From Desertivirga arenae (GTDB lineage Bacteria; Bacteroidota; Bacteroidia; Sphingobacteriales; Sphingobacteriaceae), in assembly GCF_017355785.1 (NCBI RefSeq), contig NZ_JAFEWE010000002.1, positions 360,618-424,617 on the forward strand: DNA of 64,000 nucleotides. Reading direction: 5' to 3'. This document shows positions 3,501 to 26,171 of this stretch, in pieces. Each line of letters begins with the position of its first letter. Within the stretch, counting starts at the first letter, position 1. The notes under the pieces are model-generated. The model saw only the letters and a program-made list of their open reading frames with translations. It was not told the origin of the DNA and searched no databases. The translations under genes and the position numbers were made by a program.

Positions 3501-3541
3501 CACTTTACTGGTCTGAGCGTCTCGCTCAGACCAGTAAAGTG
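3501..3541. repeat. Intergenic palindrome, GGTCTGAGCG family (19-base arms)
   Basis: Perfect inverted repeat: 19-base arms CACTTTACTGGTCTGAGCG and its complement around a 3-base loop. The GGTCTGAGCG/CGCTCAGACC core recurs at 4971, 5023, 18770 (degenerate), and as a GGTCTTAGCG variant at 56250 and 58018. It lies between the LytS kinase and the AAA ATPase gene. Confidence 0.85.
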
Positions 3542-3573
3542 TAGTCCGTTGACGGCACCAAACTCACTTGGTA

Positions 3574-4770
3574 CTAATAAAGGAATCCGAACATCCATAA
3601 GGGAATAGTATTACCGTAGCCGTATTCTATGTCATCTAATGCAAGGAAAGAGTTGGGAATGTTTTTAACCTGTTTGCTGGTTTTGTTCTTTCCTCCAACT
3701 TCAAATAAATACTGGTCGTTCACTTTAAAATCTCCCAGGTCTGGATAAGTTACCTGTGCACCGCTGTTTCGTAACTGGGATAAGAAAAAAGTTTCTCTTT
3801 GATTGCCCGTGTCTGGTACTCCTTCTGCTAAAGCCGTTATCAAACTATTATTTTCAAGAAAGATCTTTTCCGGCTTATTCATTAAACTTATGCCATGTAC
3901 TGAGGATCTCAAGCTATTTATGAGTTGTGCCTGCTCCAGGATATAAAGCATTTCTAGTAGTCGCACCCTGGAAGTTCCAATTTGTTCCGCAAGCTTAGAA
4001 ATATTTGGTTTATACGGAACGCAGGTTGAAATGATATAGAGTAAACGCTTTAGCTTTGCTTGTGTACTAACTTCAATCGCTTTAGCTTCCGGCAGATCGT
4101 AATCAATAATAACATTTATGAGCTGATTTATTTTAGCGAGATATTCGCCCTCTCCTTCCATAATAAATGGATAGGAGCCGTACGACAGATATTCTTTGAA
4201 GTATTTAAGCGGCGAAGGAACCGTTTGAATTAAATGATCAGCCAAATTTCCTGAATTGGAAAGGAGGTCTCCCAAGCTTATTTTTTCAGTTTTAGTGGAA
4301 TACCTTAAGGCGATATATTCCCTAAGGGAAAGCTCGGGAAGATAATAGCGGACAAGCCTGCGACTTAAATCGGCCTGCGACTTTTGAAGTTCCAGAATAG
4401 ACGATCCCGAAATAACTAGCTGAAGCTCCGGAAAAAAGTCATAGATATTTTTTATAGCAGACTGCCAGTCTTCGTATTTATGAACCTCGTCCAGAAAAAG
4501 GTGCCTGCCGCCTTCATTGTAAAATGTCTCTGCTACTTCTGTTAGAGGATGTTGTTTAAAATAGAGATCATCCAGAGAAACGTATAGGGTTTTATCGGCA
4601 GGCAAACTTTCCTTGATATACTGAAGCATAAGCGTTGACTTTCCAGTCCCTCTTGCGCCCTCGATGCAAATAGCACGAGAACTCCAATTGATAGATTCGC
4701 TCAGACTTCTCTTGAAAGCAGTTGAAACAGACCCTAAAACACGCCGATATTTACTGTAAAGCGATTGCAT
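3574..4770 (-). CDS. AAA+ ATPase with DUF4143-like C-terminal domain
   Basis: I choose the ATG at 4770 (MQSLYSKYRRVL) rather than the upstream frame start at 4848, because the added 26 residues read like intergenic sequence. The 398-residue protein has Walker A GARGTGKST (residues 38-46), Walker B LFLDE (91-95) and a sensor-like VISGSS. The C-terminal half contains a winged-helix-like segment and a terminal domain of the DUF4143 type, which resembles a PD-(D/E)XK fold. This AAA_14/DUF4143 architecture is widespread and often horizontally moved; its physiological role is not established. It stands alone between two palindrome-containing gaps. Confidence 0.88.
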   Translation of the reverse strand: MQSLYSKYRRVLGSVSTAFKRSLSESINWSSRAICIEGARGTGKSTLMLQYIKESLPADKTLYVSLDDLYFKQHPLTEVAETFYNEGGRHLFLDEVHKYEDWQSAIKNIYDFFPELQLVISGSSILELQKSQADLSRRLVRYYLPELSLREYIALRYSTKTEKISLGDLLSNSGNLADHLIQTVPSPLKYFKEYLSYGSYPFIMEGEGEYLAKINQLINVIIDYDLPEAKAIEVSTQAKLKRLLYIISTCVPYKPNISKLAEQIGTSRVRLLEMLYILEQAQLINSLRSSVHGISLMNKPEKIFLENNSLITALAEGVPDTGNQRETFFLSQLRNSGAQVTYPDLGDFKVNDQYLFEVGGKNKTSKQVKNIPNSFLALDDIEYGYGNTIPLWMFGFLY

Positions 4771-9830: not shown

Positions 9831-10187
9831 GTGAAGAGGGTATTTGTGTTTGAAAAGAACCAGGAAATTTTGGAGGCGGTGACCTACATTTTAACTGAAG
9901 AAGGTTATAAGGTGAATGGATTTACTTCTGAAAAACTTTTCTTAGATGGAGCTGCAGAGGAGAAACCTGATTTAATCCTTCTGGATGTTATTCAAATAAC
10001 TTTGGAGGGAACAGAACTCTGCAGACAGTTAAAAATTCTTGAGGATATTAAACATATACCCGTCATTGTTTTATCCACCCATACTAAGGCCAATGAGGTA
10101 AAGCAGATCTGCGCAGATGAGGTCATTCAAAAACCTTTCGATATTGATAACCTGCTGGAGGTTGTAGAAAACCATCTTGCAGCCTAG
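9831..10187 (+). CDS. Stand-alone receiver-domain protein with atypical acidic pocket
   Basis: 118 residues from a GTG start, one receiver domain and nothing else. The phospho-acceptor aspartate (LILLDV), the switch Ser/Thr (VIVLSTHT) and the Lys (IQKPF) are all present. The acidic pair that binds Mg2+ is altered: where DD or ED is usual the sequence reads FEKN, so the second acid is replaced by Lys. Phosphorylation may be weakened or regulated otherwise. It converges on a truncated receiver gene, with only 5 bases between the two stops. A histidine kinase lies 1.3 kb downstream. Confidence 0.85.
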   Translation: MKRVFVFEKNQEILEAVTYILTEEGYKVNGFTSEKLFLDGAAEEKPDLILLDVIQITLEGTELCRQLKILEDIKHIPVIVLSTHTKANEVKQICADEVIQKPFDIDNLLEVVENHLAA

Positions 10188-10192
10188 CAAGA

Positions 10193-10423
10193 TTAGGCAG
10201 ACAATTTCTGGTCTACTTTCTTGCACAACCCCATCCCATTGCCATCCGGCAACATTACGTCCATAAGGATAAGATCAGGATCAAGGTGTTGCAATTCGCT
10301 TAAAAACTGTTCAGCGTTCGGACATTGTCCTACCTGGTAGCCTGATTCCGTAAGTAGGTATCGAATAATTTCCTGTATATCTATTTCATCTTCAACCACT
10401 AAAACTTTCTTTCTCAATTGCAT
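10193..10423 (-). pseudogene. Truncated receiver domain
   Basis: From the ATG at 10423 (MQLRKKVLVVEDE) the frame encodes the first 75 or so residues of a receiver domain: acidic pair in VVEDE and phospho-acceptor D in LILMDVMLPDGNG. It stops right after LCKKVDQKLSA. The second half of the fold, with the Thr/Ser and Lys of the active site, is missing, so it cannot be a working receiver. The frame is open upstream to 10489. Truncation appears to have occurred where the convergent receiver gene now ends. Confidence 0.75.
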
Positions 10424-10633
10424 TTCCCGTTGCTCGAATGATTCGCTTTCTTGCAGCAAGTAATGTGCCCGGATCGTCGGTATAAACAAGAAAACCGCTT
10501 ATTTTATGTCTTGAGATACTTAAAGCGGCAGTGTTTTCACCCATCATACAATACAATTGCTGCTATAATTCATAAGGCTGTCTAAGCGTGTTCGGGACTC
10601 TCACCCTATAGCGGTGCGCCGTGCCCGGCGCAC

Positions 10634-10689
10634 AAAAAAGCCCTGTAGCTATGAGAGCAGCAGGGCAACCTAAACCTTATCACAATTAT
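10634..10689 (-). ncRNA. Candidate short RNA or leader with terminator, copy 1
   Basis: On the minus strand a conserved block starts ATAATTGTGATAAGG, continues TTTAGGTT, then forms the hairpin GCCCTG/CAGGGC with the loop part CTCTCATAG, and ends in six T. An almost identical block occurs at 23632-23688. Upstream of both is a TAnnTTTG-like box followed by CAG. This gives promoter, short transcript and terminator in about 65 bases. It could be a free small RNA or an attenuated leader of the truncated receiver gene. Confidence 0.5.
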
Positions 10690-10693
10690 GCTG

Positions 10694-10701
10694 TAAAGAT
10701 A
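10694..10701 (-). promoter_or_regulatory. Putative -7 box of RNA element copy 1
   Basis: Minus-strand TATCTTTA followed by CAG, close to the Bacteroidetes TAnnTTTG consensus. The aligned position in copy 2 reads TACCTTAG followed by CAG. The -33 element is not obvious. Confidence 0.4.
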
Positions 10702-23631: not shown

Positions 23632-23688
23632 AAAAAAAGCCCTGATACTATGAGAGCGCCAGGGCAACCTAAACCTTATCACAATTAT
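23632..23688 (-). ncRNA. Candidate short RNA or leader with terminator, copy 2
   Basis: Minus strand: ATAATTGTGATAAGG, TTTAGGTT, hairpin GCCCTG/CAGGGC with CTCTCATAG in the loop, then seven T. It matches copy 1 at 10634-10689 closely, including the loop, while flanking sequence is unrelated apart from the promoter-like box. It points towards the T9SS protein gene 400 bases on, so a leader role is possible. Confidence 0.5.
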
Positions 23689-23696
23689 TTGTACTG

Positions 23697-23704: not shown

Positions 23705-23756
23705 CGAAAGAGTATTATTAAAAAGCAAGAAAAATTTTAAAAAAAATCACTGTATC

Positions 23757-23875
23757 CTCTACCCTCTTCAGAAATGCAGCTACTTCAGCATAGATTCTTT
23801 CCATACCCTTGTCGTTAACCTCGAAATCCTGCTTGTACCGTGCTCCGGAATAACTTCTCTGCAGCAGCGGGAATA
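23757..23875 (-). pseudogene. Fragment of a HEPN gene
   Basis: About 115 bases nearly identical to 25319-25438 inside the intact HEPN gene (for example GCAGCTACTTCAGCATAGAT and CTCGAAATCCTGCTTGTACC). It covers part of the C-terminal region only, with no start and no stop in frame. It lies on the other side of the acyltransferase gene, in the same orientation as the intact copy. Confidence 0.82.
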
Positions 23876-25259: not shown

Positions 25260-26171
25260 TCAGTTTAAGGACGAAGGGAAAGCAGCTGCCATCTCTCCTA
25301 ATTTATCTTCACATCTCTCCTCTACCCTCTTTAGAAAGGCAGCTACTTCAGCATAGATCCTTTCCACATCCTTTTCGTTAACCTCGAAATCCTGCTTGTA
25401 CCGTGCACCGGAATAACTTCTCTGCAGTAGCTGGAATAAGCGTTGCTCTTCGGGGCGTTGCCTGGGGAAAAGAAACTCTTCCTCGCAGAAGCATAAACAA
25501 AGATCTTGTAAGCGCCCGAGGCTATGAATATCTGCACGATAACCCATAAATACACGGATCAAAGCAGTAAGCCCTTGTTCCATGGCCTGATGCAGTAAGA
25601 ACATGCTGATCGTATTATTCTCCTGATCCAGAGAAGAACCTGCGGCTTGCAGAAAGCCTTTAGCCAGATTATTATTGTATTCAAAGCGCAGTGCCACTTT
25701 TTCAAATACCTTTTCCACATCAGGTTCGATATAAGGGACAGTTTCTAATAGTCCGTTGCGGGAGTACAGCATTCTACCGTAGCGGAAGACCGAAGTAAAG
25801 AAGCGGTTTCCGTTTGCTAGTGCCTGCTCTATCGTTTCCATTCCATGAGCAAGCAGGGTGATCTTCCCTAATTTGAAATGGGCATTCACGTAATCCTGTA
25901 ACAGATGCTCCTGGCGTTCTATGCTCTCTGTAACTACCATTAGAAAGTAATGACAGTGGCCATTAGTACTTTCGGGATCGAATGTGCTGATATTTGTGGT
26001 CATACTCATCCTTTTAGCAAAACAGATTAACTTAACGATGTCGGTTCTAGCAGCAAGGTCGATTACCAGTTCTTTGATCGCTTCCTCTGCTTCGAGGTGG
26101 TGAATGGCGAAGGCTTTGACGGGTTTATCCCAGGGAGAAAGAGGAAGATGGGAGGATTCACCGGGTTTCAT
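25260..26171 (-). CDS. HEPN domain protein with nucleotidyltransferase-like N-terminus
   Basis: 303 residues. The C-terminal part (about 165-290) reads FLLHQAMEQGLTALIRVFMG then YRADIHSLGRL, the typical helix pair of HEPN domains; the catalytic R-x4-6-H motif of RNase-type HEPN is not evident, so it may be a structural or binding form. The N-terminal half (LEAEEAIKELVIDLAARTDI, HYFLMVVTE) looks like a degenerate nucleotidyltransferase fold, but key G-S/D-x-D residues were not found. HEPN/MNT pairs often act in toxin-antitoxin or defence roles. A Shine-Dalgarno-like GGAGG precedes the start. A fragment of the gene is at 23757. Confidence 0.8.
   Translation of the reverse strand: MKPGESSHLPLSPWDKPVKAFAIHHLEAEEAIKELVIDLAARTDIVKLICFAKRMSMTTNISTFDPESTNGHCHYFLMVVTESIERQEHLLQDYVNAHFKLGKITLLAHGMETIEQALANGNRFFTSVFRYGRMLYSRNGLLETVPYIEPDVEKVFEKVALRFEYNNNLAKGFLQAAGSSLDQENNTISMFLLHQAMEQGLTALIRVFMGYRADIHSLGRLQDLCLCFCEEEFLFPRQRPEEQRLFQLLQRSYSGARYKQDFEVNEKDVERIYAEVAAFLKRVEERCEDKLGEMAAAFPSSLN

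Follow-up and report, generated by a model that had tools for sequence, protein, structure and literature searches.

Two copies of a short intergenic element in the analysed window

The window analysed here, a continuous 64-kb stretch of the Desertivirga arenae genome, contains two minus-strand blocks which a preliminary description had singled out as copies of one element, and both were found where it had placed them, each complete from a promoter-like box through to a T-run. The first copy begins with a promoter-like -7 box (10701-10694; TATCTTTA, five of six letters in agreement with TAnnTTTG, a motif enriched across the family at a fixed distance), followed by CAG (10693-10691) and by a candidate small RNA gene (10634..10690), with a predicted transcript of ~55-57 nt. 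Within this gene lie a conserved unpaired 20-mer, ATTGTGATAAGGTTTAGGTT (10686-10667), which is a putative seed or protein-binding site, a terminator hairpin of the form GCCCTG..CTCAT..CAGGGC (10666-10640, with the pentaloop CTCAT at 10651-10655) and the T-run of the terminator (10639-10634).

The second copy repeats this arrangement on the same minus strand: a promoter-like -7 box (23704-23697; TACCTTAG, again with 5/6 letters matching TAnnTTTG), CAG (23696-23694), a candidate small RNA gene (23632..23690, predicted transcript of ~55-59 nt), the conserved unpaired 20-mer (23685-23666), a terminator hairpin (23665-23639, pentaloop CTCAT at 23650-23654) and its T-run (23638-23632). A search of the organism's own genome recovered the two copies as R1 matches (C23:371252-371306 with 85.7 bits and C23:384251-384305 with 82.5 bits, respectively). 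Both are of a one-hairpin form, and their folding was modest (z about -1.2 to -1.4).

The surroundings of the two copies agree with what had been described. The receiver gene near copy 1 is indeed broken, the 98-aa receiver domain downstream matching the 111-position Pfam model over positions 1-66 only, and the T9SS neighbour of copy 2 is a DUF5122 protein with a T9SS sorting domain, located 402 nt beyond the element. At 9831-10489 of the window a convergent pair of response-regulator receiver genes meets end to end, the minus-strand member being the truncated one. Just upstream of copy 2, the minus strand at 23751-23819 reads by eye as VNDKGMERIYAEVAAFLKRVEDT; this remnant resembles, also by eye, the C-terminal part (VNEKDVERIYAEVAAFLKRVEER) of a HEPN-domain protein encoded at 25260-26171, so that a broken duplicate appears to adjoin the copy.

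A multicopy family within the D. arenae genome

The two blocks had been regarded as twins. Both are real, but they do not form a pair, being two of 20 full-length intergenic copies in a genome of 6.19 Mb, all of which have ATTGTGATAAGGTTTAGGTT in common. A search for ATTGTGATAAGGTTTAGGTT with one mismatch allowed returned 20 sites in the genome, and the reversed pattern returned none; with at least 20 copies of the element present, the copy number is far above chance. Four copies on the same strand fall inside 46 kb of contig C23 (338739-384305). The flanking DNA is unrelated among copies except for a few bases past the T-run and, in a single pair (L003/L004), 33 bp of common upstream sequence.

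The 20-mer is unpaired and, across copies and species, almost always the same, and the stem of the hairpin that follows it varies from copy to copy. The five-base loop of this terminator is CUCAU or CCCAU in 19 of the 20 D. arenae copies, and CYCAU loops were not a general feature of terminators across the genome. The exception to the loop rule, L030, is also the sole own-genome copy with a clear 5' hairpin and resembles the form seen in relatives. Genes neighbouring the copies occur in all four orientations, have unrelated products and include no common downstream gene. Weaker elements were also seen in the genome (L072-L077), several of them keeping a CUCAU-loop terminator next to a diverged 5' part; these are possibly decaying or re-seeded paralogs, and L075 and L076 lie ~100 nt apart.

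Promoter types

A TAnnTTTG-like box (at least five of six letters) was present at a fixed distance in 11 of the 20 D. arenae copies against 3.4 expected (0/500 shuffles), and both copies in the window are of this type. An ECF-like pattern, AAC-N16/17-CGT, was found in five of the 20 (0.33 expected), four of them starting exactly at -33. Among relatives, a sigma54-type -24/-12 pattern was detected in 38 of 152 upstream regions, always at -47 to -51, where 0.25 would be expected. TAnnTTTG is the sigmaABfr box (PMC7366714), and in a flavobacterium promoter mapping has identified both CGT boxes of the ECF type and -24/-12 boxes of the sigma54 type (PMC9723704). On this motif evidence the copies would bear three promoter types, sigmaABfr-like, ECF-like and sigma54-like, and several sigma factors seem to drive the same RNA through its paralogs.

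Distribution and two-hairpin form in related bacteria

Of 400 genomes sampled from the order, 138 contained ATTGTGATAAGGTTTAGGTT with at most one mismatch, and 7 of 395 sampled across the phylum contained the 20-mer (one mismatch allowed); all carriers in both samples were Sphingobacteriaceae. In a named collection the 20-mer occurred within one mismatch in at least 116 stretches, mostly from Mucilaginibacter, the other named carriers being Pedobacter, Hufsiella, Daejeonella and some bins with doubtful names. A congener carries five tandem copies at ~157-nt steps. Some genera without the 20-mer carry a variant, TGATACGGTTTAGGT, preceded by a comparable 5' hairpin (L357, L358, L363, L366), and the family therefore probably extends beyond carriers of the 20-mer. 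Four exact 20-mers in relatives (L133, L139, L157, L173) had no terminator, and L100, L356, L359, L360 and similar weak matches were set aside, as they look like chance terminators. L111 has two nearly identical terminator hairpins ~320 nt apart (4190-4271 and 3870-3948) with different 5' parts.

In relatives the RNA consists of two hairpins around a 20-nt linker, the extra hairpin lying 5' of the conserved block, and two-hairpin members fold with z-scores of -5.6 and -5.5. The preliminary description had proposed a covariance search with a two-stem model as a check; in relatives, both stems show compensatory changes. An alignment of 101 copies displayed two-sided changes at 22 of 22 pairs, with 499 two-sided-change cells against 119 in shuffled and 51-85 in slid controls; this count is inflated by the fitting of the alignment to its own model, and the changes are visible in the sequences themselves. 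Covariation was weak in a small MAFFT alignment of the own-genome form (A2). The pentaloop is constant within a lineage (CYCAU in D. arenae, GCRAG in Mucilaginibacter) and the stem drifts with compensatory changes. In Mucilaginibacter copies such as L134 and L146, the 5' hairpin loop often includes bases complementary to those in the terminator's GCRAG loop (CTCGC with GCGAG, ACTT with AAGT), and the two could form a kissing contact.

At 37 loci the element has, as its left neighbour on the same strand, a member of a single small-protein family, and in the two loci examined this small protein sits after an ECF-type sigma-70 gene (Pfam Sigma70_r2/r4). It has no match in Pfam and is termed anti-sigma-like by position alone. 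Copies of the putative ancestral type come after an ECF sigma/anti-sigma-like operon. The next gene at this locus, DUF2911 by eye, is often on the same strand and within ~100-200 nt, as might be expected if the element were a cis-acting leader or attenuator of its neighbour, an alternative that had been left standing in the preliminary description. However, 5 of 23 such cases have this next gene on the opposite strand, the T-run follows directly after the hairpin, and the D. arenae copies adjoin unrelated genes in four orientations; with neither the downstream gene nor its orientation consistent, a leader is disfavoured and we consider it quite improbable.

The reading that had been preferred from the outset, a short RNA transcribed on its own and terminated by its own hairpin, is strongly supported by sequence comparison. 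Promoter-like motifs at a fixed distance, the intrinsic terminator, the inconsistency of downstream genes and orientations, covariation in relatives and the persistence of the 20-mer amid changing flanks all argue for it. At the level of motifs, the copies would qualify as independent genes, with a promoter of their own at a fixed distance and an intrinsic terminator of their own.

Viral copies

The exact 20-mer was present in 17 IMG/VR contigs, always accompanied by a terminator and always in agreement with the two-hairpin model, and covariation was strong among the viral copies too; two of the 17 (L311 and L319) are near-identical at the element. Genes nearby in several of these contigs encode phage DNA polymerase, primase, helicase, a RecT-like protein and integrase. 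Some contigs originate in bacterial genomes and could represent proviruses, and we infer that the hosts are Sphingobacteriaceae. The element lies just downstream of tRNA genes in two contigs (five tRNAs in L317, tRNA-Pro in L318), and in other viral contigs it comes after sequence resembling a tRNA end. Collections of named phages and plasmids yielded no useful match, save one of 19 bases in a Mucilaginibacter plasmid.

The occurrence of the same 20-letter unpaired stretch in relatives and in their viruses suggests that it probably marks a shared regulatory RNA. Phages might encode working copies, with the 20-nt element unchanged and both hairpins rebuilt, which steer a stress or surface regulon of the host during infection, the host element being wired to three kinds of sigma factor via paralogs; we offer this as a possible but tentative scenario. 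The phage copies would permit a direct test of whether phages borrow host RNA regulators.

Many dispersed copies, the five-copy tandem run in the congener and the viral contigs are also compatible with a REP- or MITE-like mobile repeat that has no regulatory role. Against this, flanks are unrelated and shared ends are no longer than ~6-8 nt, and compensatory changes in both stems together with a conserved promoter type and distance would be unexpected for a neutral repeat, which leaves such a repeat highly improbable. Membership in a transposable element, the finding that the preliminary description had named as telling against an independent RNA, was not borne out either: the copies have unrelated flanks and showed no mobile-element context, though viral copies exist.

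Comparison with described RNAs

No family in Rfam 15 matched at gathering score. The weak matches in Rfam 15 (E up to 10) did not include FopS; this release may or may not contain a model for FopS, which is said to have been deposited in Rfam (PMC11697453). Literature searches returned no description of the family or of its sequence. This small-RNA family is real and apparently undescribed, and it is ordinary in kind; its unusual traits are the strictness of the 20-mer, the mix of promoter types and the presence in phages.

The Qrr sRNAs of Vibrio resemble it in having several paralogs, a long near-identical stretch, a 5' hairpin, a terminator and sigma54 dependence. They differ in being Hfq-dependent, gammaproteobacterial and composed of four stem-loops, and a relation in sequence would be unexpected.

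By anatomy, the nearest described system would be FopS, a paralogous sRNA family of Bacteroides which represses SusC mRNAs, is bound by the RRM protein RbpB and has a phage copy (PMC11697453). Both families are multicopy, with similar copy number and short (here predicted) transcripts combining a 5' single-stranded stretch with a terminator (PMC11697453), a likeness that is no proof of kinship. Set against the description of FopS, the present family differs in predicted length (~55-60 nt versus 65-70; PMC11697453), in its covarying 5' hairpin in relatives, its three promoter types and its ancestral locus at an ECF sigma operon, and targeting of SusC is unsupported in D. arenae. GibS of B. thetaiotaomicron likewise has an extended single-stranded seed in its 5' part and a Bacteroidota host, but is a single gene with a second seed and another promoter type (PMC7366714). 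Rfp18 and other sRNAs of Flavobacterium psychrophilum are likewise structured, conserved and from Bacteroidota, and affect mRNA levels, whereas Rfp18 is not reported to be multicopy and its pairing is predicted to involve a third stem-loop (PMC9723704).

Regulatory RNAs in Bacteroidota are little known outside Bacteroides and Flavobacterium. The present family would be a large one in a common clade, and a single 20-mer probe would detect most of its members together; the range of sigma-factor types and the phages would offer a test of how paralogous sRNAs gain inputs.

Proposed action and search for the partner

Taken as a whole, the observations are best explained by a trans-acting, independently transcribed sRNA family whose working part is the 20-mer (a probability of roughly 0.6). 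Each copy would be a gene for a non-coding RNA of ~55-80 nt, transcribed independently and belonging to a family of paralogs that the sampling places only in Sphingobacteriaceae and in viruses that presumably infect them. The 20-nt element would be the active part, acting in trans, most likely through base-pairing of the linker with mRNAs near their starts in the manner of the extended seeds of FopS and GibS. Paralogs would allow sigmaABfr, ECF and sigma54 factors to summon one regulator under different conditions, and phages appear to have acquired copies, possibly to supply this regulon while they infect the host.

That 20 unpaired nucleotides are kept so strictly identical calls for a conserved partner. 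Duplex energies of the 20-mer with 1146 D. arenae gene starts were not above those of shuffled seeds, and exact complementary k-mers in gene starts of this genome were not in significant excess. For 30 SusC gene starts the mean duplex energy was -9.95 versus -10.7 for shuffled seeds, if anything weaker, and in 797 genes of relatives pairing was marginally above shuffled seeds, with no significant excess. Given that these four tests were negative, the partner could be an mRNA or an RNA-binding protein, and a protein-binding role of the 20-mer becomes a serious rival; identity over the whole 20 nt exceeds the usual length of an sRNA seed and would fit a protein-binding site too.

The RNAs would then be protein decoys or cofactors, with the 20-mer recognised by an RNA-binding protein (e.g. 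of the RRM_1 type) that the copies titrate or cap instead of pairing with mRNAs. Known sponge RNAs usually repeat their motif, whereas each RNA here has one, and the core variant TGATACGG in other genera is such as a co-evolving pairing partner could yield. On the other side, the 20-mer hardly varies between genera or among viral copies even as the surrounding stems drift, the D. arenae genome encodes three RRM_1 proteins and gave no match to Hfq, and RbpB binds FopS RNAs in Bacteroides (PMC11697453). We judge the decoy or cofactor role to be rather unlikely, and retain a trans-acting sRNA with the 20-mer as its pairing part as the preferred reading.

A covariance search did not find 16S or 23S rRNA in the D. 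arenae assembly. Near-perfect complements of the 20-mer in the same genome (L032, L036, L037, L040, L041 and others) were discarded, as none lies at a convincing mRNA start. In L139 an exact complement of the 20-mer (3523-3542) ends ~13 nt upstream of the ATG that opens a 308-aa ORF, which makes this sequence the best single lead to a candidate mRNA target.
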